Positions 6,691 to 63,658 of a stretch of 64,000 nt of DNA are shown one piece after another. This DNA is from Siphonodentalium dalli (taxonomy: Eukaryota > Mollusca > Scaphopoda > Gadilida > Siphonodentaliidae), in assembly GCA_032622095.1 (NCBI GenBank), contig CP136067.1, positions 74,490,705-74,554,704 on the forward strand, in the 5' to 3' direction. A model generated the notes under the pieces. That model did not search any database and was not told the origin of the DNA. It saw only the letters and a program-made list of their open reading frames with translations. A program made the position numbers and the translations under genes. The number at the start of each line of letters is the position of its first letter. The first letter of the stretch is position 1.

Positions 6691-7598
6691 CACAGACACC
6701 ACGTCCCCCGAAACGAGGTGGCTTTTTGGACTTTGGCTTTTTTAAAGAACAAACAAGTGAAATTCTGGCAAAATTTTACTCAAACTAGACAATGAATGAC
6801 CTGCATGTTCTCAAAGGTAAAATGTTGTGGCAGAAAGTATTTACCACACTCCACAGCAGTAACATGACATTGCTGACAGTGGGCCGATTCTGTGCCTTTC
6901 TCATGTGAAATTATGCCTGATCACCATACCTCAAATATTCCATGTTTTAAATGTTGATAATTTGACTTTATTCTTTTAATGACATTTATCTTGTTATTCA
7001 TAGCATGTGCAGTACTCTTTCTCCCATGTTGGTTCTTCAACATACTGAAGATCATTCAAATCTGACTGACGATGACCAAGTTATAGAGCTTTATAAGTTG
7101 AGACGGACGTACTCACAAGGGATAAAACTAAACAAACATGAGGAGGCCCCCCAACCCCTCCCCACATCAGATAATGAAAATCCATGAGATTGTTTTGACA
7201 GTAGCATCATCATCTGCATGGGCCTTAATAACCAATATTGATAATGAGCGCAACTCACTTTATAGAAGTGTTTTCCACAGCAGGGTTTCTGTTTGTTTCA
7301 GTTCTCTCATTGCCCACAGTCAACGGCATCATCTGATAGAAAGAATAGTCATAATTTTGGAAGATTTGCATACAAATAATGATTATATTATTCAATAATA
7401 GCCAGTTTGTATTCAACTTCCAATGACTCATTCAATGATAGCCAGGTAGTAAAATTGCTTCTACAATAGCCAGAATTTTTACAGAGACAAACATACAACA
7501 TGTTTTTTTACATAATTTTTTATTGAAATCAACAACAAATGTTGGTCAATGACATGATATGCAGCACTATAATAGCAAATTGTTTGTGGTTTCTAATA
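6691..7598. other. No gene seen
   Basis: Unassigned sequence. Overlapping short frames near 7005-7398 lack family features. Confidence 0.5.
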
Positions 7599-15000: not shown

Positions 15001-15112
15001 ATTCCTGGAAGAAACCAGAAGGGTCAATGACCCAAGGTGCAGGTCCCCCGGAAAATATGATATCCTTGGACGATCCAACTGCAACTACAGCCTCTAAGTC
15101 TGGATCAATTGC
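15001..15112 (-). CDS. NUP210: NUP210 exon (E9)
   Basis: The 112-bp exon has acceptor AAATTTCAG and donor GAAT|GTGAGT. It starts at phase 0 and ends with one base. It reads AIDPDLEAVVAVGSSKDIIF, then SGGPAPWVIDPSGFFQE, matching the AVDP...[25 protein letters not shown] block of vertebrate NUP210, one of the best conserved stretches. The next exon should begin with two bases that complete a codon starting with T; it was not found. Confidence 0.96.
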
Positions 15113-17610: not shown

Positions 17611-20600
17611 AAAGTGTCAATGACACTGTAGCTCAACTTGGAAAGGGAATAATTTAATGTATTACAGTCAATGGAGCGATTAGGAATGTGGAAAGTTGAA
17701 TGTCTAATACTAGTTTATAGACATGAAGAGAAAAGTAAAATCCAAGATGGCATGTTTTCGGCCGAATGACCCCAAAATGAGTCGTTCCGATCTACATGTC
17801 ATCGTTAACATTCATGACAAATTTTATGACGATCAGACTAAAGGTACGACATGTAGCCCGTGCTAAAGGATTTAGTCATACAAAGAGTAAAATCCAAGAT
17901 GGCTGCTGACGGCCATGTTTTTTGGGCGAATGACCCCAAAATGACTCGTTCCCATCTAAATGTCATTATTAACATTCTTGACAAATTTTATGATGATCAG
18001 ACTAAAGGTACGACCTGCAGCCCGTGCTAAAGAATTTAGTCATACAAAGAGTAAAATCCAAGATGGCTACTGGCGGCCATGTTTTTGGGCCGAATGACCC
18101 CAAAATTACTCGTTCCCATCTACATGTCAATATTAACATCCATGACAAATTTCATGATGATCAGACGAACAGTACGACCTGTGGCCCGTGCTAATGGATT
18201 AAATTTTGAAATCCAAGATGGCCGCTGGCGGCCATGTTTTTTGTCCGAATGACCCCAAAATGATTCGTTCCCATCTACATTCCAATTTCAACAACCATTA
18301 CAAATTTTAACATGATCAGACTAAAGGTACGACCTGTATCCCGTGCTAAAGGATTTAGTCATACAAAGAGTAAAATAAAAGATGGCTGCTGGCGGCCATG
18401 TTTTTTGGCCGAATGACCCCAAAATGACTCATTCCCATCTACATGTCATTATTAACATCCATGACAAATTTTATGATGATCAGACTAAAGGTACGACCTG
18501 CAGCTCGTGCTAAAGAATTTAGTCATACAAAGAGTAATATCCAAGATGGCTGCTGGCGGCCATGTTTTTTGGCCGAATGACCCCAAAATTACTCGTTCCC
18601 ATCTACATGTCATTGTTAACATCCATGACAAATTTTATGATGATCAAACTAAAGGTACGACCTGCAGCTCGTGCTAAAGAATTTAGTCATACAAAGAGTA
18701 ATATCCAAGATGGCTGCTGGCGGCATGTTTTTTGGGCAAATGACCCCAAAATGACTCGTTCTCATCTACATGTCATTATTAACATTCTTGACAAATTTTA
18801 TGATGATCAGACGAACAGTACGACCTGTGGCCCGTGCTAATGGATTAAATTTTGAATCCAAGATGGCCACTGGCGTCGATGTTTTTTGTCCGAATGACCC
18901 CAAAATTACTCGTTCCCATCTACATGTCATTGTTAACATCCATGACAAATTTCATGATGATCAGACGAACAGTACGACCTGTGGCCCGTGCTAATGGATT
19001 AAATTTTGAATCCAAGATGGCCGCTGCTGGCCATGTTTTTTATCCGAATGACACCAAAATGACTCGTTCCCATCTACATTCCAATTTCAATCGCCATGAC
19101 AAATTTTATGATGATCAGACTAAAGGTACGACCTGTAGCCCGTGCTAAAGGATTTAGTCATACAAAGAGTAAAATCCAAAATGGCTGCTGGCGGCATGTT
19201 TTTTGGGCAAATGACCCCAAAATGACTCGTTCCCATCTACATGTCATTGTTAACATTCTTGACAAATTTTATGATGATCATACTAAAAGTACGACCTGTA
19301 GCCCGTGCTAAAGAATTTAGTCATACAAAGAGTAAAATCCAAGATGGCTGCTGACGGCCATGTTTTTGGGCCGAATGACCCCAAAATTACTCGTTCCCAT
19401 CTACATCTGAATGTTAACATCCATGACAAATTTCATAATGATCAGACAAACAGTACGACCTGTGGCCCGTGCTAATGGATTAAATTTTGAAATCCAAGAT
19501 GGCCGCTGGCGGCCATGTTTTTTATCCGAATGACCCCAAAATGACTCGTTCCCATCTACATTCCAATTTCAATAGCCATGACAAATTTTATGATGATCAA
19601 ACTAAAGGTACGACCTGCAGCTCGTGCTAAAGAATTTGGTCATACAAAGAGTAATATCCAAGATGGCTGCTGGCGGCCATGTTTTTTGGCCGAATGACCC
19701 CAAAATTACTCGTTCCCATCTACATGTCAATATTATCATCCATGACAAATTTCATGATGATCAGACGAACAGTACGACCTGTGGCCCGTGCTAATGGATT
19801 AAATTTTGAAATCCAAGATGGCCACTGGCGTCGATGTTTTTTGTCCGAATGACCCCAAAATTACTCGTTCCCATCTACATTCCAATTTCAACAACCATGA
19901 CAAATGTTATGATGATCAGACTAAAGGTACGACCTGTAGCTCGTGCTAAAGGATTTAGTCATACAAAGAGTAAAATCCAAGATGGCTGCTGGCGGCCATG
20001 TTTTTTGACCGAATGACCCCAAAATGACTCGTTCCCATCTACATGTCATTATTAACATTCTTGACAAATTTTATGATGATCAGACTAAAAGTAGGACCTG
20101 TAGCCCGTGCTAAAGGATTTAGTCATACAAAGAGTAAAATCCAAGATGGCTGCTGGCGGCCATGTTTTTTGGCCGAGTGACCCCAAAATGACTCGTTCCC
20201 ATCTACATGTCATTATTAACATTCTTGACAAATTTTATGATGATCAGACTAAAGGTACGACCTGCAGCCCGTGCTAAAGAATTTAGTCATACAAAGAGTA
20301 AAATCAAAGATGGCTGCTGGCGGCCATGTTTTTTGGCCGAATGACCCCAAAATTACTCATTCCCATCTACATGTCAATATTATCATCCATGACAAGTTTC
20401 ATGATGATCAGACGAACAGTACGACCTGTGGCCCGTGCTAATGGATTAAATTTTGATATCCAAGATGGCCGCTGGTGGCCATGTTTTTTTATCCGAATGA
20501 CCCCAAAATTACTCGTTCCCATCTACATTCCAATTTCAATAGCCATGACAAATTTTATGATGATCAGACTAAAGGTACGACCTGTAGCCCGTGCTAAAGG

Positions 20601-23600
20601 ATTTAGTCATACAAAGAGTAAAATCCAAAATGGCTGCTGGCGGCATGTTTTTTGGGCAAATGACCCCAAAATGACTCGTTCTCATCTACACGTCATTATT
20701 AACATTCTTGACAAATTTTATGATGATCAGACTAAAAGTAGGACCTGTAGCCCGTGCTAAAGGATTTAGTCATACAAAGAGTAAAATCCAAGATGGCTGC
20801 TGGCGGCCATGTTTTTTTGGCCGAATGACCCCAAAATGACTCGTTCCCATCTACATGTCATTGTTAACATTCTTGACAAATTTTATGATGATCATACTAA
20901 AAGTACGACCTGTAGCCCGTGCTAAAGAATTTAGTCATACAAAGAGTAAAATCCAAGATGGCTGCTGACGGCCATGTTTTTGGGCCGAATGACCCCAAAA
21001 TTACTCGTTCCCATCTACATGTGAATGTTAACATCCATGACAAATTTCATAATGATCAGACAAACAGTACGACCTGTGGCCCGTGCTAATGGATTAAATT
21101 TTGAAATCCAAGATGGCCGCTGGCGGCCATGTTTTTTATCCGAATGACCCCAAAATGACTCGTTCCCATCTACATTCCAATTTCAATAGCCATGACAAAT
21201 TTTATGATGATCAGACTAAAGGTACGACCTGTAGCCCGTGCTAAAGGATTTAGTCATACAAAGAGTAAAATCCAAAATGGCTGCTGGCGGCCATGTTTTT
21301 TGGCAGAGTGACCCCAAAATGACTCGTTCCCATCTACATGTCATTATTAACATTCTTGACAAATTTTATGATGATCAGACTAAAGGTACGACCTGCAGCC
21401 CGTGCTAAAGAATTTAGTCATACAAAGAGTAAAATCAAAGATGGCTGCTGGCGGCCATGTTTTTTGGCCGAATGACCCCAAAATTACTCATTCCCATCTA
21501 CATGTCAATATTATCATCCATGACAAGTTTCATGATGATCAGACGAACAGTACGACCTGTGGCCCGTGCTAATGGATTAAATTTTGATATCCAAGATGGC
21601 CGCTGGTGGCCATGTTTTTTATCCGAATGACCCCAAAATTACTCGTTCCCATCTACATTCCAATTTCAATAGCCATGACAAATTTTATGATGATCAGACT
21701 AAAGGTACGACCTGTAGCCCGTGCTAAAGGATTTAGTCATACAAAGAGTAAAATCCAAAATGGCTGCTGGCGGCATGTTTTTTGGGCAAATGACCCCAAA
21801 ATGACTCGTTCTCATCTACATGTCATTATTAACATTCTTGACAAATTTTATGATGATCAGACTAAAAGTAGGACCTGTAGCCCGTGCTAAAGGATTTAGT
21901 CATACAAAGAGTAAAATCCAAGATGGCTGCTGGCGGCCATGTTTTTTGGCCGAATGACCCCAAAATGACTCGTTCCCATCTACATGTCATTGTTAACATT
22001 CTTGACAAATTTTATGATGATCATACTAAAAGTACGACCTGTAGCCCGTGCTAAAGAATTTAGTCATACAAAGAGTAAAATCCAAGATGGCTGCTGGCGG
22101 CCATGTTTTTTGGCCGAATGACCCCAAAATGACTCGTTCCCATCTACATGTCATTGTTAACATTCTTGACAAATTTTATGATGATCAGACTAAAGGTACG
22201 ACCTGCAGCTCGTGCTAAAGAATTTAGTCATACAAAGAGTAATATCCAAGATGGCTGCTGGCGGCCATGTTTTTTGGCCGAATGACCCCAAAATTACTCG
22301 TTCCCATCTACATGTCATTGTTAACATCCATGACAAATTTTATGATGATCAAACTAAAGGTACGACCTGCAGCTCGTGCTAAAGAATTTAGTCATACAAA
22401 GAGTAATATCCAAGATGGCTGCTGGCGGCATGTTTTTTGGGCAAATGACCCCAAAATGACTCGTTCTCATCTACATGTCATTATTAACATTCTTGACAAA
22501 TTTTATGATGATCAGACGAACAGTACGACCTGTGGCCCGTGCTAATGGATTAAATTTTGAATCCAAGATGGCCACTGGCGTCGATGTTTTTTGTCCGAAT
22601 GACCCCAAAATTACTCGTTCCCATCTACATTCCAATTTCAAAAACCATGACAAATTTTATGATGATCAGACTAAAAGTAGGACCTGTAGCCCGTGCTAAA
22701 GGATTTAGTCATACAAAGAGTAAAATCCAAGATGGCTGCTGGCGGCCATGTTTTTTGGCCGAGTGACCCCAAAATGACTCGTTCCCATCTACATGTCATT
22801 ATTAACATTCTTGACAAATTTTATGATGATCAGACTAAAAGTAGGACCTGTAGCCCGTGCTAAAGAATTTAGTCATACAAAGAGTAAAATCCAAGATGGC
22901 CGCTGCTGGCCATGTTTTTTATCCGAATGACACCAAAATGACTCGTTCCCATCTACATTCCAATTTCAATCGCCATGACAAATTTTATGATGATCAGACT
23001 AAAGGTACGACCTGTAGCCCGTGCTAAAGGATTTAGTCATACAAAGAGTAAAATCCAAAATGGCTGCTGGCGGCATGTTTTTTGGGCAAATGACCCCAAA
23101 ATGACTCGTTCCCATCTACATGTCATTGTTAACATTCTTGACAAATTTTATGATGATCATACTAAAAGTACGACCTGTAGCCCGTGCTAAAGAATTTAGT
23201 CATACAAAGAGTAAAATCCAAGATGGCTGCTGACGGCCATGTTTTTGGGCCGAATGACCCCAAAATTACTCGTTCCCATCTACATCTGAATGTTAACATC
23301 CATGACAAATTTCATAATGATCAGACAAACAGTACGACCTGTGGCCCGTGCTAATGGATTAAATTTTGAAATCCAAGATGGCCGCTGGCGGCCATGTTTT
23401 TTATCCGAATGACCCCAAAATGACTCGTTCCCATCTACATTCCAATTTCAATAGCCATGACAAATTTTATGATGATCAAACTAAAGGTACGACCTGCAGC
23501 TCGTGCTAAAGAATTTGGTCATACAAAGAGTAATATCCAAGATGGCTGCTGGCGGCCATGTTTTTTGGCCGAATGACCCCAAAATTACTCGTTCCCATCT

Positions 23601-26600
23601 ACATGTCAATATTATCATCCATGACAAATTTCATGATGATCAGACGAACAGTACGACCTGTGGCCCGTGCTAATGGATTAAATTTTGAAATCCAAGATGG
23701 CCACTGGCGTCGATGTTTTTTGTCCGAATGACCCCAAAATTACTCGTTCCCATCTACATTCCAATTTCAACAACCATGACAAATGTTATGATGATCAGAC
23801 TAAAGGTACGACCTGTAGCTCGTGCTAAAGGATTTAGTCATACAAAGAGTAAAATCCAAGATGGCTGCTGGCGGCCATGTTTTTTGACCGAATGACCCCA
23901 AAATGACTCGTTCCCATCTACATGTCATTATTAACATTCTTGACAAATTTTATGATGATCAGACTAAAAGTAGGACCTGTAGCCCGTGCTAAAGGATTTA
24001 GTCATACAAAGAGTAAAATCCAAGATGGCTGCTGGCGGCCATGTTTTTTGGCAGAGTGACCCCAAAATTACTCATTCCCATCTACATGTCAATATTATCA
24101 TCCATGACAAGTTTCATGATGATCAGACGAACAGTACGACCTGTGGCCCGTGCTAATGGATTAAATTTTGATATCCAAGATGGCCGCTGGTGGCCATGTT
24201 TTTTATCCGAATGACCCCAAAATTACTCGTTCCCATCTACATTCCAATTTCAATAGCCATGACAAATTTTATGATGATCAGACTAAAGGTACGACCTGTA
24301 GCCCGTGCTAAAGGATTTAGTCATACAAAGAGTAAAATCCAAAATGGCTGCTGGCGGCATGTTTTTTGGGCAAATGACCCCAAAATGACTCGTTCTCATC
24401 TACATGTCATTATTAACATTCTTGACAAATTTTATGATGATCAGACTAAAAGTAGGACCTGTAGCCCGTGCTAAAGGATTTAGTCATACAAAGAGTAAAA
24501 TCCAAGATGGCTGCTGGCGGCCATGTTTTTTGGCCGAATGACCCCAAAATGACTCGTTCCCATCTACATGTCATTGTTAACATTCTTGACAAATTTTATG
24601 ATGATCATACTAAAAGTACGACCTGTAGCCCGTGCTAAAGAATTTAGTCATACAAAGAGTAAAATCCAAGATGGCTGCTGACGGCCATGTTTTTGGGCCG
24701 AATGACCCCAAAATTACTCGTTCCCATCTACATGTGAATGTTAACATCCATGACAAATTTCATAATGATCAGACAAACAGTACGACCTGTGGCCCGTGCT
24801 AATGGATTAAATTTTGAAATCCAAGATGGCCGCTGGCGGCCATGTTTTTTATCCGAATGACCCCAAAATGACTCGTTCCCATCTACATTCCAATTTTAAT
24901 AGCCATGACAAATTTTATGATGATCAGACTAAAGGTACGACCTGTAGCCCGTGCTAAAGGATTTAGTCATACAAAGAGTAAAATCCAAAATGGCTGCTGG
25001 CGGCATGTTTTTTGGGCAAATGACCCCAAAATGACTCGTTCTCATCTACACGTCATTATTAACATTCTTGACAAATTTTATGATGATCAGACTAAAAGTA
25101 GGACCTGTAGCCCGTGCTAAAGGATTTAGTCATACAAAGAGTAAAATCCAAGATGGCTGCTGGCGGCCATGTTTTTTGGCCGAATGACCCCAAAATGACT
25201 CGTTCCCATCTACATGTCATTGTTAACATTCTTGACAAATTTTATGATGATCATACTAAAAGTACGACCTGTAGCCCGTGCTAAAGAATTTAGTCATACA
25301 AAGAGTAAAATCCAAGATGGCTGCTGACGGCCATGTTTTTGGGCCGAATGACCCCAAAATTACTCGTTCCCATCTACATGTGAATGTTAACATCCATGAC
25401 AAATTTCATAATGATCAGACAAACAGTACGACCTGTGGCCCGTGCTAATGGATTAAATTTTGAAATCCAAGATGGCCGCTGGCGGCCATGTTTTTTATCC
25501 GAATGACCCCAAAATGACTCGTTCCCATCTACATTCCAATTTCAATAGCCATGACAAATTTTATGATGATCAGACTAAAGGTACGACCTGTAGCCCGTGC
25601 TAAAGGATTTAGTCATACAAAGAGTAAAATCCAAAATGGCTGCTGGCGGCCATGTTTTTTGGCAGAGTGACCCCAAAATGACTCGTTCCCATCTACATGT
25701 CATTATTAACATTCTTGACAAATTTTATGATGATCAGACTAAAGGTACGACCTGCAGCCCGTGCTAAAGAATTTAGTCATACAAAGAGTAAAATCAAAGA
25801 TGGCTGCTGGCGGCCATGTTTTTTGGCCGAATGACCCCAAAATTACTCATTCCCATCTACATGTCAATATTATCATCCATGACAAGTTTCATGATGATCA
25901 GACGAACAGTACGACCTGTGGCCCGTGCTAATGGATTAAATTTTGATATCCAAGATGGCCGCTGGTGGCCATGTTTTTTATCCGAATGACCCCAAAATTA
26001 CTCGTTCCCATCTACATTCCAATTTCAATAGCCATGACAAATTTTATGATGATCAGACTAAAGGTACGACCTGTAGCCCGTGCTAAAGGATTTAGTCATA
26101 CAAAGAGTAAAATCCAAAATGGCTGCTGGCGGCATGTTTTTTGGGCAAATGACCCCAAAATGACTCGTTCTCATCTACATGTCATTATTAACATTCTTGA
26201 CAAATTTTATGATGATCAGACTAAAAGTAGGACCTGTAGCCCGTGCTAAAGGATTTAGTCATACAAAGAGTAAAATCCAAGATGGCTGCTGGCGGCCATG
26301 TTTTTTGGCCGAATGACCCCAAAATGACTCGTTCCCATCTACATGTCATTGTTAACATTCTTGACAAATTTTATGATGATCATACTAAAAGTACGACCTG
26401 TAGCCCGTGCTAAAGAATTTAGTCATACAAAGAGTAAAATCCAAGATGGCTGCTGGCGGCCATGTTTTTTGGCCGAATGACCCCAAAATGACTCGTTCCC
26501 ATCTACATGTCATTGTTAACATTCTTGACAAATTTTATGATGATCAGACTAAAGGTACGACCTGCAGCTCGTGCTAAAGAATTTAGTCATACAAAGAGTA

Positions 26601-29600
26601 ATATCCAAGATGGCTGCTGGCGGCCATGTTTTTTGGCCGAATGACCCCAAAATTACTCGTTCCCATCTACATGTCATTGTTAACATCCATGACAAATTTT
26701 ATGATGATCAAACTAAAGGTACGACCTGCAGCTCGTGCTAAAGAATTTAGTCATACAAAGAGTAATATCCAAGATGGCTGCTGGCGGCATGTTTTTTGGG
26801 CAAATGACCCCAAAATGACTCGTTCTCATCTACATGTCATTATTAACATTCTTGACAAATTTTTATGATGATCAGACGAACAGTACGACCTGTGGCCCGT
26901 GCTAATGGATTAAATTTTGAATCCAAGATGGCCACTGGCGTCGATGTTTTTTGTCCGAATGACCCCAAAATTACTCGTTCCCATCTACATTCCAATTTCA
27001 AAAACCATGACAAATTTTATGATGATCAGACTAAAAGTAGGACCTGTAGCCCGTGCTAAAGGATTTAGTCATACAAAGAGTAAAATCCAAGATGGCTGCT
27101 GGCGGCCATGTTTTTTGGCCGAGTGACCCCAAAATGACTCGTTCCCATCTACATGTCATTATTAACATTCTTGACAAATTTTATGATGATCAGACTAAAG
27201 GTACGACCTGCAGCCCGTGCTAAAGAATTTAGTCATACAAAGAGTAAAATCAAAGATGGCTGCTGGCGGCCATGTTTTTTGGCCGAATGACCCCAAAATT
27301 ACTCATTCCCATCTACATGTCAATATTATCATCCATGACAAGTTTCATGATGATCAGACGAACAGTACGACCTGTGGCCCGTGCTAATGGATTAAATTTT
27401 GATATCCAAGATGGCCGCTGCTGGCCATGTTTTTTATCCGAATGACACCAAAATGACTCGTTCCCATCTACATTCCAATTTCAATCGCCATGACAAATTT
27501 TATGATGATCAGACTAAAGGTACGACCTGTAGCCCGTGCTAAAGGATTTAGTCATACAAAGAGTAAAATCCAAAATGGCTGCTGGCGGCATGTTTTTTGG
27601 GCAAATGACCCCAAAATGACTCGTTCCCATCTACATGTCATTGTTAACATTCTTGACAAATTTTATGATGATCATACTAAAAGTACGACCTGTAGCCCGT
27701 GCTAAAGAATTTAGTCATACAAAGAGTAAAATCCAAGATGGCTGCTGACGGCCATGTTTTTGGCCGAATGACCCCAAAATTACTCGTTCCCATCTACATC
27801 TGAATGTTAACATCCATGACAAATTTCATAATGATCAGACAAACAGTACGACCTGTGGCCCGTGCTAATGGATTAAATTTTGAAATCCAAGATGGCCGCT
27901 GGCGGCCATGTTTTTTATCCGAATGACCCCAAAATGACTCGTTCCCATCTACATTCCAATTTCAATAGCCATGACAAATTTTATGATGATCAAACTAAAG
28001 GTACGACCTGCAGCTCGTGCTAAAGAATTTGGTCATACAAAGAGTAATATCCAAGATGGCTGCTGGCGGCCATGTTTTTTGGCCGAATGACCCCAAAATT
28101 ACTCGTTCCCATCTACATGTCAATATTATCATCCATGACAAATTTCATGATGATCAGACGAACAGTACGACCTGTGGCCCGTGCTAATGGATTAAATTTT
28201 GAAATCCAAGATGGCCACTGGCGTCGATGTTTTTGTCCGAATGACCCCAAAATTACTCGTTCCCATCTACATTCCAATTTCAACAACCATGACAAATTTT
28301 ATGATGATCAGACTAAAGGTACGACCTGTAGCTCGTGCTAAAGGATTTAGTCATACAAAGAGTAAAATCCAAGATGGCTGCTGGCGGCCATGTTTTTTGA
28401 CCGAATGACCCCAAAATGACTCGTTCCCATCTACATGTCATTATTAACATTCTTGACAAATTTTATGATGATCAGACTAAAAGTAGGACCTGTAGCCCGT
28501 GCTAAAGGATTTAGTCATACAAAGAGTAAAATCCAAGATGGCTGCTGGCGGCCATGTTTTTTGGCAGAGTGACCCCAAAATGACTCGTTCCCATCTACAT
28601 GTCATTATTAACATTCTTGACAAATTTTATGATGATCAGACTAAAAGTAGGACCTGTAGCCCGTGCTAAAGGATTTAGTCATACAAAGAGTAAAATCCAA
28701 GATGGCTGCTGGCGGCCATGTTTTTTGGCCGAATGACCCCAAAATGACTCGTTCCCATCTACATGTCATTGTTAACATTCTTGACAAATTTTATGATGAT
28801 CATACTAAAAGTACGACCTGTAGCCCGTGCTAAAGAATTTAGTCATACAAAGAGTAAAATCCAAGATGGCTGCTGACGGCCATGTTTTTGGGCCGAATGA
28901 CCCCAAAATTACTCGTTCCCATCTACATGTGAATGTTAACATCCATGACAAATTTCATAATGATCAGACAAACAGTACGACCTGTGGCCCGTGCTAATGG
29001 ATTAAATTTTGAAATCCAAGATGGCCGCTGGCGGCCATGTTTTTTATCCGAATGACCCCAAAATGACTCGTTCCCATCTACATTCCAATTTTAATAGCCA
29101 TGACAAATTTTATGATGATCAGACTAAAGGTACGACCTGTAGCCCGTGCTAAAGGATTTAGTCATACAAAGAGTAAAATCCAAAATGGCTGCTGGCGGCA
29201 TGTTTTTTGGGCAAATGACCCCAAAATGACTCGTTCTCATCTACACGTCATTATTAACATTCTTGACAAATTTTATGATGATCAGACTAAAAGTAGGACC
29301 TGTAGCCCGTGCTAAAGGATTTAGTCATACAAAGAGTAAAATCCAAGATGGCTGCTGGCGGCCATGTTTTTTGGCCGAATGACCCCAAAATGACTCGTTC
29401 CCATCTACATGTCATTGTTAACATTCTTGACAAATTTTATGATGATCATACTAAAAGTACGACCTGTAGCCCGTGCTAAAGAATTTAGTCATACAAAGAG
29501 TAAAATCCAAGATGGCTGCTGACGGCCATGTTTTTGGGCCGAATGACCCCAAAATTACTCGTTCCCATCTACATGTGAATGTTAACATCCATGACAAATT

Positions 29601-32600
29601 TCATAATGATCAGACAAACAGTACGACCTGTGGCCCGTGCTAATGGATTAAATTTTGAAATCCAAGATGGCCGCTGGCGGCCATGTTTTTTATCCGAATG
29701 ACCCCAAAATGACTCGTTCCCATCTACATTCCAATTTCAATAGCCATGACAAATTTTATGATGATCAGACTAAAGGTACGACCTGTAGCCCGTGCTAAAG
29801 GATTTAGTCATACAAAGAGTAAAATCCAAAATGGCTGCTGGCGGCCATGTTTTTTGGCAGAGTGACCCCAAAATGACTCGTTCCCATCTACATGTCATTA
29901 TTAACATTCTTGACAAATTTTATGATGATCAGACTAAAGGTACGACCTGCAGCCCGTGCTAAAGAATTTAGTCATACAAAGAGTAAAATCAAAGATGGCT
30001 GCTGGCGGCCATGTTTTTTGGCCGAATGACCCCAAAATTACTCATTCCCATCTACATGTCAATATTATCATCCATGACAAGTTTCATGATGATCAGACGA
30101 ACAGTACGACCTGTGGCCCGTGCTAATGGATTAAATTTTGATATCCAAGATGGCCGCTGGTGGCCATGTTTTTTATCCGAATGACCCCAAAATTACTCGT
30201 TCCCATCTACATTCCAATTTCAATAGCCATGACAAATTTTATGATGATCAGACTAAAGGTACGACCTGTAGCCCGTGCTAAAGGATTTAGTCATACAAAG
30301 AGTAAAATCCAAAATGGCTGCTGGCGGCATGTTTTTTGGGCAAATGACCCCAAAATGACTCGTTCTCATCTACATGTCATTATTAACATTCTTGACAAAT
30401 TTTATGATGATCAGACTAAAAGTAGGACCTGTAGCCCGTGCTAAAGGATTTAGTCATACAAAGAGTAAAATCCAAGATGGCTGCTGGCGGCCATGTTTTT
30501 TGGCCGAATGACCCCAAAATGACTCGTTCCCATCTACATGTCATTGTTAACATTCTTGACAAATTTTATGATGATCATACTAAAAGTACGACCTGTAGCC
30601 CGTGCTAAAGAATTTAGTCATACAAAGAGTAAAATCCAAGATGGCTGCTGGCGGCCATGTTTTTTGGCCGAATGACCCCAAAATGACTCGTTCCCATCTA
30701 CATGTCATTGTTAACATTCTTGACAAATTTTATGATGATCAGACTAAAGGTACGACCTGCAGCTCGTGCTAAAGAATTTAGTCATACAAAGAGTAATATC
30801 CAAGATGGCTGCTGGCGGCCATGTTTTTTGGCCGAATGACCCCAAAATTACTCGTTCCCATCTACATGTCATTGTTAACATCCATGACAAATTTTATGAT
30901 GATCAAACTAAAGGTACGACCTGCAGCTCGTGCTAAAGAATTTAGTCATACAAAGAGTAATATCCAAGATGGCTGCTGGCGGCATGTTTTTTGGGCAAAT
31001 GACCCCAAAATGACTCGTTCTCATCTACATGTCATTATTAACATTCTTGACAAATTTTATGATGATCAGACGAACAGTACGACCTGTGGCCCGTGCTAAT
31101 GGATTAAATTTTGAATCCAAGATGGCCACTGGCGTCGATGTTTTTTGTCCGAATGACCCCAAAATTACTCGTTCCCATCTACATTCCAATTTCAAAAACC
31201 ATGACAAATTTTATGATGATCAGACTAAAAGTAGGACCTGTAGCCCGTGCTAAAGGATTTAGTCATACAAAGAGTAAAATCCAAGATGGCTGCTGGCGGC
31301 CATGTTTTTTGGCCGAGTGACCCCAAAATGACTCGTTCCCATCTACATGTCATTATTAACATTCTTGACAAATTTTATGATGATCAGACTAAAGGTACGA
31401 CCTGCAGCCCGTGCTAAAGAATTTAGTCATACAAAGAGTAAAATCAAAGATGGCTGCTGGCGGCCATGTTTTTTGGCCGAATGACCCCAAAATTACTCAT
31501 TCCCATCTACATGTCAATATTATCATCCATGACAAGTTTCATGATGATCAGACGAACAGTACGACCTGTGGCCCGTGCTAATGGATTAAATTTTGATATC
31601 CAAGATGGCCGCTGCTGGCCATGTTTTTTATCCGAATGACACCAAAATGACTCGTTCCCATCTACATTCCAATTTCAATCGCCATGACAAATTTTATGAT
31701 GATCAGACTAAAGGTACGACCTGTAGCCCGTGCTAAAGGATTTAGTCATACAAAGAGTAAAATCCAAAATGGCTGCTGGCGGCATGTTTTTTGGGCAAAT
31801 GACCCCAAAATGACTCGTTCCCATCTACATGTCATTGTTAACATTCTTGACAAATTTTATGATGATCATACTAAAAGTACGACCTGTAGCCCGTGCTAAA
31901 GAATTTAGTCATACAAAGAGTAAAATCCAAGATGGCTGCTGACGGCCATGTTTTTGGGCCGAATGACCCCAAAATTACTCGTTCCCATCTACATCTGAAT
32001 GTTAACATCCATGACAAATTTCATAATGATCAGACAAACAGTACGACCTGTGGCCCGTGCTAATGGATTAAATTTTGAAATCCAAGATGGCCGCTGGCGG
32101 CCATGTTTTTTATCCGAATGACCCCAAAATGACTCGTTCCCATCTACATTCCAATTTCAATAGCCATGACAAATTTTATGATGATCAAACTAAAGGTACG
32201 ACCTGCAGCTCGTGCTAAAGAATTTGGTCATACAAAGAGTAATATCCAAGATGGCTGCTGGCGGCCATGTTTTTTGGCCGAATGACCCCAAAATTACTCG
32301 TTCCCATCTACATGTCAATATTATCATCCATGACAAATTTCATGATGATCAGACGAACAGTACGACCTGTGGCCCGTGCTAATGGATTAAATTTTGAAAT
32401 CCAAGATGGCCACTGGCGTCGATGTTTTTTGTCCGAATGACCCCAAAATTACTCGTTCCCATCTACATTCCAATTTCAACAACCATGACAAATGTTATGA
32501 TGATCAGACTAAAGGTACGACCTGTAGCTCGTGCTAAAGGATTTAGTCATACAAAGAGTAAAATCCAAGATGGCTGCTGGCGGCCATGTTTTTTGACCGA

Positions 32601-34404
32601 ATGACCCCAAAATGACTCGTTCCCATCTACATGTCATTATTAACATTCTTGACAAATTTTATGATGATCAGACTAAAAGTAGGACCTGTAGCCCGTGCTA
32701 AAGGATTTAGTCATACAAAGAGTAAAATCCAAGATGGCTGCTGGCGGCCATGTTTTTTGGCAGAGTGACCCCAAAATGACTCGTTCCCATCTACATGTCA
32801 TTATTAACATTCTTGACAAATTTTATGATGATCAGACTAAAGGTACGACCTGCAGCCCGTGCTAAAGAATTTAGTCATACAAAGAGTAAAATCAAAGATG
32901 GCTGCTGGCGGCCATGTTTTTTGGCCGAATGACCCCAAAATTACTCATTCCCATCTACATGTCAATATTATCATCCATGACAAGTTTCATGATGATCAGA
33001 CGAACAGTACGACCTGTGGCCCGTGCTAATGGATTAAATTTTGATATCCAAGATGGCCGCTGGTGGCCATGTTTTTTATCCGAATGACCCCAAAATTACT
33101 CGTTCCCATCTACATTCCAATTTCAATAGCCATGACAAATTTTATGATGATCAGACTAAAGGTACGACCTGTAGCCCGTGCTAAAGGATTTAGTCATACA
33201 AAGAGTAAAATCCAAAATGGCTGCTGGCGGCATGTTTTTTGGGCAAATGACCCCAAAATGACTCGTTCTCATCTACATGTCATTATTAACATTCTTGACA
33301 AATTTTATGATGATCAGACTAAAAGTAGGACCTGTAGCCCGTGCTAAAGGATTTAGTCATACAAAGAGTAAAATCCAAGATGGCTGCTGGCGGCCATGTT
33401 TTTTGGCCGAATGACCCCAAAATGACTCGTTCCCATCTACATGTCATTGTTAACATTCTTGACAAATTTTATGATGATCATACTAAAAGTACGACCTGTA
33501 GCCCGTGCTAAAGAATTTAGTCATACAAAGAGTAAAATCCAAGATGGCTGCTGACGGCCATGTTTTTGGGCCGAATGACCCCAAAATTACTCGTTCCCAT
33601 CTACATGTGAATGTTAACATCCATGACAAATTTCATAATGATCAGACAAACAGTACGACCTGTGGCCCGTGCTAATGGATTAAATTTTGAAATCCAAGAT
33701 GGCCGCTGGCGGCCATGTTTTTTATCCGAATGACCCCAAAATGACTCGTTCCCATCTACATTCCAATTTTAATAGCCATGACAAATTTTATGATGATCAG
33801 ACTAAAGGTACGACCTGTAGCCCGTGCTAAAGGATTTAGTCATACAAAGAGTAAAATCCAAGATGGCTGCTGGCGGCCATGTTTTTTGACCGAATGACCC
33901 CAAAATGACTCGTTCCCATCTACATGTCATTGTTAACATTCTTGACAAATTTTATGATGATCAGACTAAAAGTACGACCTGTAGCCCGTGCTAAAGAATT
34001 TAGTCATACAAAGAGTAAAATCCAAGATGGCTGCTGGTGGCCATGTTTTTGGGCCGAATGACCCCCAAAATTACTCGTTCCCATCTACATGTGAATGTTA
34101 ACATCCATGACAAATTTCATAATGATCAAACAAACAGTACGGCCTGTGGCCCGTGCTAATGGATTGAATTTTGAAATCTAAGATGGCCACTGGCGGCCAT
34201 GTTTTTTTTCCGAATGACCCCAAAATTAATCATTCTGGTCTAAATGTTGATGTCAACAGCTATGACAAATTTCATAATGATCCGACCAAAGGTACGACCT
34301 GTAGCCTGCATTGTTGACACCTTACGTACACACGCACACACGGACGACGGACGACAAAGCCATGGCAATAGCTCAAACTTTACAAAGTAAAGTTGAGCTA
34401 AAAA
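17611..34404 (+). mobile_element. R1 element expanded to 16.8 kb (pearl/Helentron-like, non-autonomous)
   Basis: The left end has the palindrome GTGTCAATGACAC followed by TAGCTCAACTT (17629-17639), as in other R1 copies at 14161 and 49695. The right end has a CACACGGACGACGG tract, then CCATGGCAATAGCTC and a hairpin (34370-34399) ending AAGTTGAGCTA, the inverse of the left motif. The same right end occurs at 37100-37184. Between them lies the satellite core. Dispersed R1 copies carry only one to five core units, so this copy looks hugely expanded. Helentron-type identity is inferred from the architecture; no Rep/helicase is present. Confidence 0.8.
17745..34310 (+). repeat. Satellite array, ~164/155-bp monomers, about 100 copies, with higher-order repeats
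   Basis: Successive GAATGACCCC landmarks are 164 bp apart (17764, 17928, 18092), or about 155 bp when the link GGATTTAGTCATACAAAGAG is replaced by the shorter GGATTAAATTTTGAAATCC. Each unit contains AATCCAAGATGGCTGCTGG, CGGCCATGTTTTTTGG, GACTCGTTCCCATCTACAT, GACAAATTTTATGATGATCA and GTACGACCTG. Blocks recur almost unchanged: 19096 and 22975 (3879 bp apart), 21606 and 25965 (4359), 24905 and 29100 (4195), 26626 and 30821 (4195). Short open frames here are by-products; 164 is not a multiple of 3 and none exceeds one or two units. Confidence 0.97.
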
Positions 34405-34757: not shown

Positions 34758-34897
34758 CTTTAGTGGATTAAATGCAGCAATTGTAAGTGATGCTTGCAAC
34801 AGAATATCATTTGATTTGTAAACAGCCCGAATCTCAGTATGACCTCTTTCTGTAGCAACAACACTAATGCTAACACAGCCTGCAGTGCCTGAAGAAC
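34758..34897 (-). CDS. NUP210: NUP210 exon (E8)
   Basis: The 140-bp exon has acceptor TGTTTGTAG and donor AAG|GTATAG. Two bases finish the Gly codon, then it reads SSGTAGCVSISVVATERGHT, then EIRAVYKSNDILLQASLTI and AAFNPLK. This is the GSEHCSGIRV...GSTTLLVSY...ITIAAYLPLK block of vertebrate NUP210, the last strands of one Ig-like repeat. The following intron is 19.6 kb and contains the giant satellite. Confidence 0.96.
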
Positions 34898-41659: not shown

Positions 41660-41765
41660 CATCCACAACAGCAGATAGTTGGAGTGGCAGTTCTAAAACA
41701 GATCCAACCTCAGACTCCACTCTGGATGGATTGAAGAACATTTCTTTTGGTGGAAGAACATAGAC
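41660..41765 (-). CDS. NUP210: NUP210 exon (E6)
   Basis: The 106-bp exon has acceptor CCTATTTTAG and donor GATG|GTATGG. It starts at phase 0 and ends with one base of a Gly codon. It reads VYVLPPKEMFFNPSRVESEV, then GSVLELPLQLSAVVD, matching the VYVIEP...VGQALELPLRISG block of vertebrate NUP210. It completes the strand begun by E5 (YGDAE then VYV), which confirms that the minisatellite is intronic. Confidence 0.96.
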
Positions 41766-41908
41766 CTAAAATAGGAATTATAATTGTCAACAATATAGTC
41801 AATGACTATTGTCAATAGAATTTAATGACTGTTGGGACGCCTAAAATACCATAGAGTCTGAGAATGACTAACTCTTTAATGCTCAAATGTTTTTAGTGCA
41901 ACCCTCAA

Positions 41909-42022
41909 TGATCTGTTTTGACAAGATCATCTATTCCTCAATAACATGATCTGTTTTGACAAGGTCATCTATTCCTCAATAACATGATCTGTTTTGAAAA
42001 GGTCATCTATTCCTCAATAACA
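41909..42022. repeat. 38-bp tandem repeat, 3 copies
   Basis: Three nearly identical units contain TGATCTGTTTTGACAAG and GTCATCTATTCCTCAATAAC; the third has GAAAAG for GACAAG. It is intronic, just downstream of the minisatellite in the gene direction and upstream of E6 on the plus-strand map. Confidence 0.9.
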
Positions 42023-42169
42023 TGATATTTGATTTATATGACCTGTTTTCTGTTTATATAAACAGCTTATATTCAGATAAGATGCTTTATTATAGATCAC
42101 TACTGTTGCAGATCAACTCATCAATTCCTGGTTAAAGAGGTGGATGTTTAAATCCTGAAGGACAGTTTT

Positions 42170-42300
42170 AATTAGGGGATTTATAAGCATGCGTCTGGTG
42201 TGAGTTTGGAACATTTATCGGTGGGTTTTACGATGGAAAATGCAGTTTATCATCCAAAAATCACATCACACCAGACAGCATGTTATTCCCCATTCTAATT
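42170..42300. repeat. Foldback element, 131 bp
   Basis: AATTAGGGGAT...GCATGCGTCTGGTGTGA on the left is mirrored by TCACACCAGACAGCATG... CCCCATTCTAATT on the right, around a ~60-bp loop. This is typical of a small foldback MITE; no family is assigned. Confidence 0.65.
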
Positions 42301-43690
42301 CACACGGACCAAAAAATCATGCTATAGAATTAGAATCTGCCAAAGAGTTGCTGAAATGCTCATGATTGACAGTTTACAAATAATCCTTATAACTTCTTAC
42401 TTGAAACTGTACTCTTCTCCATGAGTATATAGCTCCAAATTTTTAATAGAAATAAACCAAGCAAACCAAAGAATCCATTAAATTGTTTGACTCAAATTCT
42501 ATATCACACAAATTTAACATCGAAAATATATAAATTATATTAAAAATTGCAAGTTTCGTGGTCAAGTTGTGCCAATGTATTACACTACCAGAGCTGTTAA
42601 GTTTACAAAACTGCAATTCGGGAGATTTTTGTGAGAGTTAGGCCCAAATATGCTCATGTTCCAAAGAAAATTTGTAAATAAAATGGGCCATGTGGCATCG
42701 CAAGTTTTGAGTATCCAACTTTTCGTTTCAGATCGTTCAAACGGAAAACACAAGACCTGTATAATCTCCTGTTTTGTCCGCGAGTCTCCCAATGTTATGC
42801 CTTAAACCTTGCGATCCAACAACCTCCATAAATAATCTCACGGTTTGGGGAAATGCAGGTGATAAAGACATTGTATTCTTTTTTAAATTACTGCCGGTAA
42901 CAAGGAAGTATTACAGGCAAGTCTCGTTCTTAAGTCTCACTAACGAGATATCGGATGTGTTCTATTGTCTCTCTGAATAGGCGCCTTATGCCGGGGAGGG
43001 TTTATTACATGCTATTAAATTACTGAGTTGACTTTACCATCTTACCTTGTGGCGACTTGCATTTCGTATTATTATTATATGCATTATTACTCTAATATTA
43101 CACACGACACATATATAGGTAGTATTTTTTCCCCCAATTAAAAGACTATCAGATCTTGGGATCGACTAATTTAATAATCATTTCAACACTACTCGTCTCA
43201 AAGATTTACATCAGACAGGAATGCACATTGTCATTCATGCTCGCTTATGTAATCATAAGTCGTTATTAAATCTATTGTCTGTACTATAACAGCATGCATG
43301 GCTTGCATGGCTACGAAGAATGTGAAAATGAATTAGTCTCAATTGACTCACTGCTGATAGTATTGAATGATGATGATATGAAATTACCCATGATGTTACG
43401 ACATCTGCACATGCGGGAGAAATTGGTGCTCTTCCATATCTTGGAGGTTTACCTATGACAATCTGGGAGTCTCATGGACAATCCGCGAAACTTAACAGCT
43501 CTGTACACTACTGCCAGGCCATTGGCATTGCATCATTGTCAGTGGTCAAGACATGAAATTCATAGAATAGCGAACAACTGTTCGCGAACAGCTGTTTGCT
43601 GCTTACAATAATAAAGAGAAATAAGTTCTTACTGGCTAAAAAAGAAGAAAATTTACATATTTCAGGGAGAAAGAATCTTCCATATCTCCC
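42301..43690. other. Intron E5-E6, no gene seen
   Basis: This is the unique-looking intron sequence on the E6 side of the minisatellite. Its edge, CCTAGTGGGAGATATGG on the gene strand, is probably the original intron sequence that followed the amplified unit. Confidence 0.5.
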
Positions 43691-46600
43691 ACTAGGTTTT
43701 TGCATGCTTTAATGTTGTATTACCTCGGCATCGACTAGGTTTTTGCATGCTTTGATGTTGTATTACCTCGGCATCGACTAGGTTTTTGCATGCTTTGATG
43801 TTGTATTACCTCGGCATCGACTAGGTTTTTGCATGCTTTGATGTTGTATTACCTCGGCATCGACTAGGTTTTTGCATGCTTTGATGTTATATTACCTCGG
43901 CATCGACTAGGTTTTTGCATGCTTTGATGTTGTATTACCTCGGCATCGACTAGGTTTTTGCATGCTTTGATGTTGTATTACCTCGGCATCGACTAGGTTT
44001 TTGCATGCTTTGATGTTATATTACCTCGGCATCGACTAGGTTTTTGCATGCTTTGATGTTGTATTACCTTGGCATCGACTAGGTTTTTGCATGCTTTGAT
44101 GTTATATTACCTCGGCATCGACTAGGTTTTTGCATGCTTTGATGTTATATTACCTCGGCATCGACTAGGTTTTTGCATGCTTTGATGTTATATTACCTCG
44201 GCATCGACTAGGTTTTTGCATGCTTTGATGTTGTATTACCTCGGCATCGACTAGGTTTTTGCATGCTTTGATGTTGTATTACCTTGGCATCGACTAGGTT
44301 TTTGCATGCTTTGATGTTGTATTACCTCGGCATCGACTAGGTTTTTGCATGCTTTGATGTTGTATTACCTCGGCATCGACTAGGTTTTTGAATGCTTTAA
44401 TGTTGTATTACCTCGGCATCGACTAGGTTTTTGCATGCTTTGATGTTATATTACCTCGGCATCGACTAGGTTTTTGCATGCTTTGATGTTGTATTACCTC
44501 GGCATCGACTAGGTTTTTGCATGCTTTGATGTTGTATTACCTCGGCATCGACTAGGTTTTGCATGCTTTGATGTTGTATTACCTCGGCATCGACTAGGTT
44601 TTTGCATGCTTTGATGTTGTATTACCTCGGCATCGACTAGGTTTTTGCATGCTTTAATGTTGTATTACCTCGGCATCGACTAGGTTTTTGCATGCTTTGA
44701 TGTTATATTACCTCGACATCGACTAGGTTTTTGCATGCTTTGATGTTGTATTACCTCGGCATCGACTAGGTTTTTGAATGCTTTGATGTTATATTACCTC
44801 GGCATCGACTAGGTTTTTGCATGCTTTGATGTTGTATTACCTCGGCATCGACTAGGTTTTTGAATGCTTTGATGTTGTATTACCTCGGCATCGACTAGGT
44901 TTTTGAATGCTTTGATGTTGTATTACCTCGGCATCGACTAGGTTTTTGCATGCTTTGATGTTGTATTACCTCGGCATCGACTAGGTTTTTGCATGCTTTA
45001 ATGTTGTATTACCTCGGCATCGACTAGGTTTTTGCATGCTTTGATGTTATATTACCTCGGCATCGACTAGGTTTTTGCATGCTTTGATGTTGTATTACCT
45101 CGGCATCGACTAGGTTTTTGCATGCTTTGATGTTGTATTACCTCGGCATCGACTAGGTTTTTGCATGCTTTGATGTTATATTACCTCGACATCGACTAGG
45201 TTTTTGCATGCTTTGATGTTGTATTACCTCGGCATCGACTAGGTTTTTGAATGCTTTGATGTTGTATTACCTCGGCATCGACTAGGTTTTTGCATGCTTT
45301 GATGTTGTATTACCTCGGCATCGACTAGGTTTTTGCATGCTTTGATGTTGTATTACCTCGGCATCGACTAGGTTTTTGCATGCTTTGATGTTGTATTACC
45401 TCGGCATCGACTAGGTTTTGCATGCGTTGATGTTGTATTACCTCGGCATCGACTAGGTTTTTGAATGCTTTGATGTTGTATTACCTCGGCATCGACTAGG
45501 TTTTTGCATGCTTTGATGTTGTATTACCTCGGCATCGACTAGGTTTTTGCATGCTTTGATGTTGTATTACCTCGGCATCGACTAGGTTTTGCATGCTTTG
45601 ATGTTGTATTACCTCGGCATCGACTAGGTTTTTGAATGCTTTGATGTTGTATTACCTCGGCATCGACTAGGTTTTGCATGCTTTGATGTTATATTACCTC
45701 GGCATCGACTAGGTTTTTGAATGCTTTGATGTTGTATTACCTCGGCATCGACTAGGTTTTGCATGCTTTGATGTTGTATTACCTCGGCATCGACTAGGTT
45801 TTTGCATGCTTTGATGTTGTATTACCTCGGCATCGACTAGGTTTTTGCATGCTTTGATGTTGTATTACCTTGGCATCGACTAGGTTTTTGCATGCTTTGA
45901 TGTTGTATTACCTCGGCATCGACTAGGTTTTTGCATGCTTTGATGTTGTATTACCTCGGCATCGACTAGGTTTTTGCATGCTTTGATGTTATATTACCTC
46001 GACATCGACTAGGTTTTGCATGCTTTGATGTTGTATTACCTCGGCATCGACTAGGTTTTTGAATGCTTTGATGTTGTATTACCTCGGCATCGACTAGGTT
46101 TTGCATGCTTTGATGTTATATTACCTCGGCATCGACTAGGTTTTTGAATGCTTTGATGTTGTATTACCTCGGCATCGACTAGGTTTTGCATGCTTTGATG
46201 TTGTATTACCTCGGCATCGACTAGGTTTTTGCATGCTTTGATGTTGTATTACCTCGGCATCGACTAGGTTTTTGCATGCTTTGATGTTGTATTACCTTGG
46301 CATCGACTAGGTTTTTGCATGCTTTGATGTTGTATTACCTCGGCATCGACTAGGTTTTTGCATGCTTTGATGTTGTATTACCTCGGCATCGACTAGGTTT
46401 TTGCATGCTTTGATGTTATATTACCTCGACATCGACTAGGTTTTGCATGCTTTGATGTTGTATTACCTCGGCATCGACTAGGTTTTTGAATGCTTTGATG
46501 TTGTATTACCTCGGCATCGACTAGGTTTTGCATGCTTTGATGTTATATTACCTCGGCATCGACTAGGTTTTTGAATGCTTTGATGTTGTATTACCTCGGC

Positions 46601-47462
46601 ATCGACTAGGTTTTGCATGCTTTGATGTTGTATTACCTCGGCATCGACTAGGTTTTTGCATGCTTTGATGTTATATTACCTCGGCATCGACTAGGTTTTT
46701 GCATGCTTTGATGTTGTATTACCTCGGCATCGACTAGGTTTTTGCATGCTTTGATGTTGTATTACCTCGGCATCGACTAGGTTTTTGCATGCTTTGATGT
46801 TGTATTACCTCGGCATCGACTAGGTTTTTGCATGCTTTGATGTTGTATTACCTCGGCATCGACTAGGTTTTTGAATGCTTTGATGTTGTATTACCTCGGC
46901 ATCGACTAGGTTTTTGCATGCTTTGATGTTGTATTACCTCGGCATCGACTAGGTTTTTGAATGCTTTGATGTTGTATTACCTCGGCATCGACTAGGTTTT
47001 GCATGCTTTGATGTTGTATTACCTCGGCATCGACTAGGTTTTTGCATGCTTTGATGTTATATTACCTCGGCATCGACTAGGTTTTTGCATGCTTTGATGT
47101 TATATTACCTCGGCATCGACTAGGTTTTTGCATGCTTTGATGTTATATTACCTCGGCATCGACTAGGTTTTTGCATGCTTTGATGTTATATTACCTCGGC
47201 ATCGACTAGGTTTTTGCATGCTTTGATGTTATATTACCTCGGCATCGACTAGGTTTTTGAATGCTTTGATGTTGTATTACCTCGGCATCGACTAGGTTTT
47301 TGCATGCTTTGATGTTGTATTACCTCGGCATCGACTAGGTTTTTGCATGCTTTGATGTTATATTACCTCGGCATCGACTAGGTTTTTGCATGCTTTGATG
47401 TTATATTACCTCGGCATCGACTAGGTTTTTGCATGCTTTGATGTTATATTACCTCGGCATCG
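43691..47462. repeat. 43-bp minisatellite made of the NUP210 E5 exon/intron junction, about 88 copies
   Basis: The array is 3772 bp of 43-bp units (some 42 bp, lacking one T of the T5 run). On the plus strand a unit runs TATTACCTCGGCATCG, ACTAGGTTTTTGCATG, CTTTGATGTTG. Read on the gene strand, each unit is about 33 bp of intron start plus the 10 exon bases CGATGCCGAG and the donor GTAATA. Variants recur: G/A in GTTGTATT versus GTTATATT, C/A in TTGCATG versus TTGAATG, and CTTGG or CTCGA for CTCGG. The copy at the exon edge is the functional boundary; the other copies lie in the intron. A 10-unit pattern repeats at 427-bp spacing inside the array. Confidence 0.98.
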
Positions 47463-47605
47463 CCGTAGAAATTGACATTTTTTGCATCAGCAGCCTGTAT
47501 AGTAGATAAGCCCTGCTTGAATGTAGTTATCTCCCCTCTCTGGTTGACGGCCACGACACTTGAATTAGTTGACTTCCATACATACTCTCCAGTGCCACCA
47601 GTAGC
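47453..47605 (-). CDS. NUP210: NUP210 exon (E5), Ig-like (BIG2-like) repeat; donor lies in a minisatellite
   Basis: This 153-bp exon encodes 51 codons, with acceptor TATTTACAG and donor GAG|GTAATA, phase 0 at both ends. It reads ATGGTGEYVWKSTNSSVVAV, then NQRGEITTFKQGLSTIQAAD, then AKNVNFYGDAE. GG-GEY-W-S, A-V-N-G, and TIQAAD-KN-YG-(VYV) are the landmarks of this Ig-like repeat in gp210. NSS is a potential glycosylation sequon. The last 10 exon bases and the donor are the first unit of the 43-bp minisatellite that fills the start of the next intron. If the donor is skipped, the reading frame meets TAA at the third codon of the intron. Confidence 0.97.
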
Positions 47606-49310: not shown

Positions 49311-49451
49311 CTTCAGGTTATACTTGTGTGAGGTCTGTGTAGCTGGCTCCCATGGAAAGTACAGCTCTTCTGGGTCAACAAGAATAGCATCATAAATCTG
49401 TACTAGCTGTGAACCTTTTACTTCTGGGATAATACTGTGCTGACTTCCATC
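49311..49451 (-). CDS. NUP210: NUP210 exon (E4), YFPWEP segment
   Basis: This 141-bp exon encodes 47 codons with phase 0 at both ends, between acceptor CACTGTAG and donor AAG|GTCAGT. It reads DGSQHSIIPEVKGSQLVQIY, then DAILVDPEELYFPWEP, and ends TSHKYNLK. The tail matches the FPWQP...YQYTIRA block that opens an Ig-like repeat in vertebrate NUP210. The repeat continues into E5, so this exon boundary splits the domain. Confidence 0.95.
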
Positions 49452-52972: not shown

Positions 52973-53113
52973 CTTTCTGATAAGTTTATCAAGAGAACCT
53001 TCTATCTGAGTTTTTCCTCTGCTCAATGTTTTCACATGGTGAAACGTGCCATTCTTTGTCGAATAGAGAACATCAAAATAGTCTCTTGGAAAGAATGCTT
53101 CAAGGCGAATGTT
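52973..53113 (-). CDS. NUP210: NUP210 exon (E3)
   Basis: This 141-bp exon encodes 47 codons with phase 0 at both ends, between acceptor AAATTTCAG and donor AAG|GTAATG. It begins NIRLEAFFPRDYFDVLYST, contains NGTFHHVKTLSRGKTQIEG and ends LDKLIRK. The start corresponds to the NIRIE...FEV block of vertebrate NUP210 and the centre to its NGSYH..ALKRGQT block. NGT is a potential N-glycosylation sequon, consistent with a lumenal position. Confidence 0.95.
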
Positions 53114-62887: not shown

Positions 62888-63063
62888 CTTTGATGGGTAC
62901 AGTTTGTGTCTATCATTGTCATAAAGTTCCAATACAATGTCATATTCACGGCCAGTTTGTAATATCCACTTCCTACCAGGGAATACCAGGAAGTTGATCG
63001 TGGAAGCAGAAACAACGTGCAACATGGCAGCCTGTGGCTTGTAGGAGTCACTGTAGATTATAT
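62888..63063 (-). CDS. NUP210: NUP210 exon (E2), WxLxTGRxY segment
   Basis: The 176-bp exon has acceptor TTTATAG and donor AAG|GTTTGT. It reads IIYSDSYKPQAAML, then VVSASTINFLVFPG, then KWILQTGREYDIVLELYD, and ends LYPSK at a codon boundary. The W-x-L-x-TGR-x-Y-x-I pattern followed by an acidic turn is a recognisable gp210 signature; vertebrate NUP210 has the same spacing. The exon joins E3 without a phase gap across a 9.8-kb intron. Confidence 0.95.
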
Positions 63064-63529: not shown

Positions 63530-63658
63530 TTTTGTCTTTGAGGATGATCTTTGTTGAACCCATCTCTGTACCAACAGCAGTGGATGTTGCTTTCTCAAAG
63601 TCACAAATGTTGGAATTCTCTACCTCAAGGAAATATTGTTCATTTGGCATCTCAATAG
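63530..63658 (-). CDS. NUP210: NUP210 exon (E1 in window), lumenal domain
   Basis: The 129-bp exon follows an acceptor TTTAATTTTAG and ends at a GTACAC donor. It starts with two bases that finish a codon and ends with one base. It reads IEMPNEQYFLEVE, then NSNICDF, and finishes STKIILKDK, a beta-rich Ig-like strand pattern of gp210. A second possible donor (GTAACT, 22 bp further on) looks stronger, but only the GTACAC donor joins in frame to E2, giving KDKNIIYSDS. The exons upstream of this one lie beyond the right edge. Confidence 0.88.

Follow-up and report, generated by a model that had tools for sequence, protein, structure and literature searches.

The window, a stretch of 64,000 nucleotides from the genome of Siphonodentalium dalli (CP136067.1, positions 74,490,705 to 74,554,704), carries exons of NUP210 on its minus strand. 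A tblastn search of the window, with a human NUP210 protein sequence as query, gave nine collinear matches on one strand, from 63647 down to 7258, eight of them at E ≤0.02 and one at E 0.76. Together with the flanking sequence, these place minus-strand exons with putative boundaries at 63530..63658 (the most upstream found), 62888..63054, 52973..53112 and 49311..49449 (the exon before E5, bounded by splice consensus), and further downstream at 34758..34897, 15001..15111 and 7259..7336, the last being the weak match. Between the exons at 34758-34897 and 15001-15111 lies a 16.6-kb array (17751-34306, period 164, 102.7 copies).

The two exons of most concern here are E5 and E6. Exon E5 (47453..47605, minus strand, 153 nt, phase 0/0) was recognized from its open frame, its match to human NUP210 and its flanks, with the acceptor TTTACAG|GCT and the donor GAG|GTAATA. 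It consists of 51 open codons (47605-47453) encoding ATGGTGEYVWKSTNSSVVAVNQRGEITTFKQGLSTIQAADAKNVNFYGDAE, and judging from its phase, transcripts lacking E5 would remain in frame. The intron upstream of it is ~1.7 kb long, and the intron between E5 and E6 (41766..47452, minus strand) measures 5687 bp, of which 3762 bp belong to the array described below. Exon E6 (VYVLPPKEM..., 41660..41765, minus strand, from tblastn and flanks) starts at 41765 after ...CCTATTTTAG and has a putative donor ATG|GTATGG. About 140 bp upstream of E6, the same intron contains a second, smaller array of 38 bp × 3.1 (41908-42026), which does not reach that exon. E5 ends in ...GGC GAT GCC GAG | GTAATATAAC and E6 begins with AG | GTC TAT GTT, so that the two join in frame as ...YGDAE|VYVLPPKEM.... 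The joined peptide matched the human NUP210 chain 7r5j_10 (2.5e-15) and the NUP210 of another eukaryote, 9hcj_10 (8.1e-12), and the residues YGDAEVYV at the junction align with FGEMKVYV of human NUP210. Searching the 2.23-Gb genome with the E5-E6 peptide returned two matches, both at the NUP210 locus and thus a single place. Given the collinear matches and the single genomic E5-E6 copy, the locus appears, as far as can be judged from sequence, to be a gene and not a pseudocopy.

The boundary between E5 and its downstream intron lies inside a minisatellite (43691..47462, minus strand). A previous sequence-only reading had described a 43-bp minisatellite of about 88 copies across this boundary, each copy made of the last 10 bases of E5, the donor GTAATA and intron bases, and our analysis bore this out. 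TRF, run on the window, reported 88.0 copies with 97% matches, and splitting the array on the gene (minus) strand gave 88 units in 11 variants, 76 of them 43 bp and 12 of them 42 bp long. The array covers the last 10 bases of E5: its exon-side unit reads, on the gene strand, CGATGCCGAG (exon, plus-strand positions 47462-47453) and continues with GTAATA from 47452. The string AGGTAATA was present in 88/88 units and absent from the rest of the window on both strands; under uniform chance, a sequence as long as the array would be expected to contain it 0.06 times. The donor core AG|GTAATA is likewise intact in every unit, with no variant touching it. The changes relative to the commonest unit are C17T (n = 24), G31T (n = 15) and the loss of one A (n = 12), and more rarely C6T, G8A and C23T (n = 4 each) and A26C (n = 1). 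As there are so few variant types, the constancy of the donor core does not show that the 87 additional donors, which we call decoys, are under selection. An interspersed repeat of ~300 bp (43200-43504) adjoins the far end of the array; with 40 of 1090 candidates scored, at least 39 further genomic sites share 78-88% identity with it.

Assembly is difficult for long arrays of near-identical units, and excerpts of the amphioxus globin study report that the BflGb6 gene was mis-assembled in a draft (PMC3087553). We nevertheless regard it as extremely unlikely that the array is false or its length wrong as an assembly artefact. The window contains no N letters, and the variant units are ordered and include block duplications: a block of 10 units, DCGCDEAAFA, forms a direct repeat (units 20-29, then 30-39), after which its first half follows again. 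Such a direct repeat also points to unequal exchange. Furthermore, two independent boundary arrays are found elsewhere in the genome (loci L044 and L048, below). The exact copy number of 88 may still be wrong.

The bases that E5 shares with the array encode residues aligning with human NUP210, which makes the exon, on sequence comparison, the likely source of the array unit. The reverse order, in which a minisatellite of the intron extended into the exon edge and the end of E5 was captured from the array, would agree with the mostly intronic position of the array, and a weak hint in the same direction is that AAG|GT occurs at 4/9 donors mapped in the window while E5 has GAG|GTAATA. We consider this order very unlikely, however, given that the residues encoded by the exonic part are in register with NUP210 of human and of another eukaryote, and that a genome search found the array unit in one place only in 2.23 Gb. 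Most probably, the array is a mirage minisatellite that was born at the boundary by tandem duplication and is tolerated since exon definition picks the exon-proximal donor. According to this proposal, 43 bp of NUP210 spanning the end of E5 and the start of its intron would have been duplicated in tandem. Unequal exchange or slippage, copying entire blocks of units, would then have raised the copy number to 88. The array would sit wholly downstream of a working boundary. Exon definition would pair the upstream acceptor with the first donor, leaving the 87 decoys mostly ignored, and with splicing at the exon-nearest donor the coding sequence would be preserved. The sequence itself shows the array and its overlap with E5, the block duplications, the frame and the stop, the identical donor of each unit and the two other boundary arrays of this genome, whereas we infer how the duplication arose, which donor is actually chosen and that the array is nearly neutral.

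The use of a decoy would have a clear consequence for the protein. It had been claimed that the intron opens with the codons GTA ATA TAA, so that any decoy would introduce a stop. The stop claim holds, with one correction: the exon-proximal unit does read GTAATATAA (the TATAA form), but the same T is found in only 24/88 units, and 64/88 have GTAATACAA. Reading through from E5 gives ...GDAE-V-I-stop within the exon-proximal unit, and as every decoy product must contain this unit, any decoy would give the stop. The further claim, that the gene must favour the exon-proximal donor, follows from this early stop.

Two properties that might single out the true donor were evaluated, and both were rejected as the selector. 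By U1 duplex energy, none of the nine mapped NUP210 donors surpasses that of E5 (-6.7 kcal/mol), the others ranging from -3.0 to -6.6 kcal/mol, and the E5 donor is among the top 1.4% when compared with the 3359 GT sites that the same strand has outside the array. All 87 decoys carry the same donor core, as had been stated, 83 as GAG|GTAATA and four as AAG|GTAATA, and their energies are equal within 0.1 kcal/mol; even the four AAG forms are no weaker (-6.6 kcal/mol), which counts against the exon-proximal choice. A much stronger GT site, AAGGTAAGA (-9.5 kcal/mol, offset 4407), is present in the intron outside the array, so that U1 energy alone does not decide donor use. RNA structure, predicted with RNAplfold for the 88 donors at three window settings, gives the true donor no edge either: it is no more open than the decoys, the chance of the 9-nt donor being unpaired being 0.025 compared with a decoy mean of 0.033 (sd 0.025). 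Since neither strength nor folding sets the true donor apart, position remains.

With an exon of 153 nt between introns of ~1.7 and 5.7 kb, exon definition may apply to E5 by analogy with systems studied experimentally. Excerpts of a study on splice site choice describe minigenes in which identical donors were placed 52 nt apart, with a 365-nt intron on either side, and in which the upstream donor was used exclusively (PMC9225289). When identical donor pairs were weakened, according to the same excerpts, the upstream choice was kept in smaller exons and exon skipping occurred in larger ones (PMC9225289). Among human events, those that combine near-equal donors with long introns both upstream and downstream are described there as favouring the upstream donor, whereas events taken without a strength filter preferred the downstream donor in ~60%, which counts against the rule (PMC9225289). 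As minigenes with identical donors use, under exon definition, the upstream site only, decoy use may, by analogy, be rare at NUP210. The same minigenes speak against dosage control, under which some transcripts would use decoys, acquire the Val-Ile-stop and enter nonsense-mediated decay, with array length tuning NUP210 output. This is possible in view of the stop from any decoy and of 87 competing donors of equal U1 energy, and transcripts of human IFI6 are described, in the available part of PMC4526556, as using downstream repeat units as donors. We find it unlikely all the same: amphioxus mirages are reported, in excerpts of PMC3087553, not to disturb splicing, and sequence by itself gives decay-based control no support.

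To see other boundaries in this genome, 50 loci (L033-L082) were cut around matches to the Mito_carr and Ras domains and compared with themselves. Two of them carry arrays at exon boundaries, in both cases at an acceptor. Locus L044 has 21 units of ~44 bp (615-1510; C5, about 100911116-100912011) abutting the true acceptor, each unit holding a branch-point-like TTACTAATT, a pyrimidine stretch and CAG|GTATAACACA, that is, a complete 3' splice site; in other loci, TACTAAT occurs at 0.04 per kb. Splicing to the nearest upstream acceptor instead would introduce a stop into the reading frame. The exon is the last of a mitochondrial carrier, which we take to be SLC25A19-like, and other carrier matches are found upstream on the same strand. 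A second block lies ~3.5 kb upstream in the same intron (C5:100907265-100907791). At L048, three units of 99 bp (1264-1562 of the reverse complement; 1715-2013 as fetched) each combine 22 intron bases ending in TTACAG with 77 exon bases of the last exon of another mitochondrial carrier, presumably SLC25A34/35-like. Here all three acceptors are open in one frame, and decoys would add 33 or 66 residues. Some further candidates were not counted: self-similarity at an exon end of L034 is a single 46-bp partial match ~900 bp downstream, and the arrays of L079 and L082 are past or inside the open frame. For acceptors, exon definition is described in the excerpts of PMC9225289 as only reducing, not reversing, the upstream preference, so the rule would be weaker for L044.

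The NUP210 array is not the first of its kind, as amphioxus mirages and human G1P3/IFI6 precede it. In the latter gene (6-16), a minisatellite with multiple donor sites was reportedly described by Turri in 1995. Mirages, as characterized in the available portions of PMC3087553 and PMC3902484, are tandem repeats that cross exon-intron boundaries, at the 5' as well as the 3' end, in the amphioxus genes for Adh3, the globins BflGb6 and BflGb9, troponin C and PGBD5, with units of 150-160 bp in BflGb6, 157 bp in BflGb9 and 10-72 bp in Adh3. They are said there to be length-unstable and proposed to seed introns (PMC3087553, PMC3902484), and, judging from Adh3 data and from RT-PCR of globins, regular splicing seems to be left undisturbed by them (excerpts of PMC3087553). 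The NUP210 array has the same design, in that its unit spans an exon-intron boundary and the AG/GT splice signal is kept in 88/88 units. It differs in copy number, since the two BflGb6 haplotypes have 3 and 6 copies in the part of PMC3087553 available, and also in its ordered multi-unit duplications and its setting in a 2.23-Gb genome, which exceeds the size expected of amphioxus. In the one assembly analysed, the block duplications inside the array lend indirect support to a copy number that may vary. Similarly to NUP210, the minisatellite units of human G1P3/IFI6 supply donors at an exon end (PMC4526556, in part); downstream units are used there and give alternative isoforms, whereas any downstream unit brings a stop in NUP210. 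Internal tandem repeats of human segmental duplications also occur at exon-intron boundaries and have been linked to new introns, but they average ~30 bp × 4, and excerpts of PMC2812944 describe no donor array of the size seen in NUP210. Intron minisatellites, but no boundary array, are described in the accessible text on an earthworm metallothionein gene. Titles and abstract openings, mostly outside the subscription literature, contained no further mirages beyond amphioxus, which has little bearing on priority. What is new is the copy number, the occurrence in an animal other than amphioxus and the presence of two other boundary arrays in the small part of the genome that was sampled.

These features support a boundary-born minisatellite with putative exon-proximal donor choice. 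Should transcripts bear this out, the 88 equivalent donors, spaced regularly at 43 bp, would constitute a test of spliceosomal choice among identical sites, for which exon definition predicts use of the first only, intron definition use of the last, and U1 occupancy with random choice a distribution over many; a mirror test would come from the acceptor arrays elsewhere in this genome. The NUP210 array would also extend mirages beyond the amphioxus cases in the literature covered and add material to the idea that such duplications seed introns.

Whether boundaries are enriched for arrays was evaluated with 23 spliced loci, namely 19/50 of L033-L082 and the additional L083-L086, spliced status being judged from open-frame length and partial model coverage. 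The other 31 loci of L033-L082 (judged intronless), L001, L002 and the kinase loci L003-L032 were left out of the count, and the pairs L036/L038, L049/L050 and L075/L076 are possible duplicates among the 23. Boundary arrays were carried by 2/23 spliced loci and by 1/9 NUP210 exons. This genome is rich in minisatellites: the window and the 23 loci (135.8 kb) contain 14 arrays (period ≥15, ≥2.8 copies), three of them with an edge inside an exon. The enrichment is not significant, as about 1.5 of the 28 edges would be expected in exons from ~7.3 kb of mapped exon (~5.4% of 135.8 kb; Poisson P ~0.19). With three edges against ~1.5, splice sites need not attract arrays, and chance together with tolerance suffices. 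It is rather doubtful that boundary minisatellites are widespread here and form preferentially at splice sites, at donors as in NUP210 and at whole branch-point/pyrimidine/acceptor modules as in L044, one conceivable route being breaks or slippage associated with transcription or splicing. If this were true, the genome would offer a naturally occurring set of identical splice sites in competition, with the frame kept by the exon-proximal site only (NUP210, L044) or by all (L048), and exon-definition rules would be measurable from RNA alone. The 30 kinase loci come mostly from one C2 stretch and are mostly near-identical, with whole-domain open frames. On C2, the region 149826753-150592734 holds near-identical protein-kinase copies, each in a single frame, in a large cluster where many are regularly spaced at 2359 or 2889 bp.
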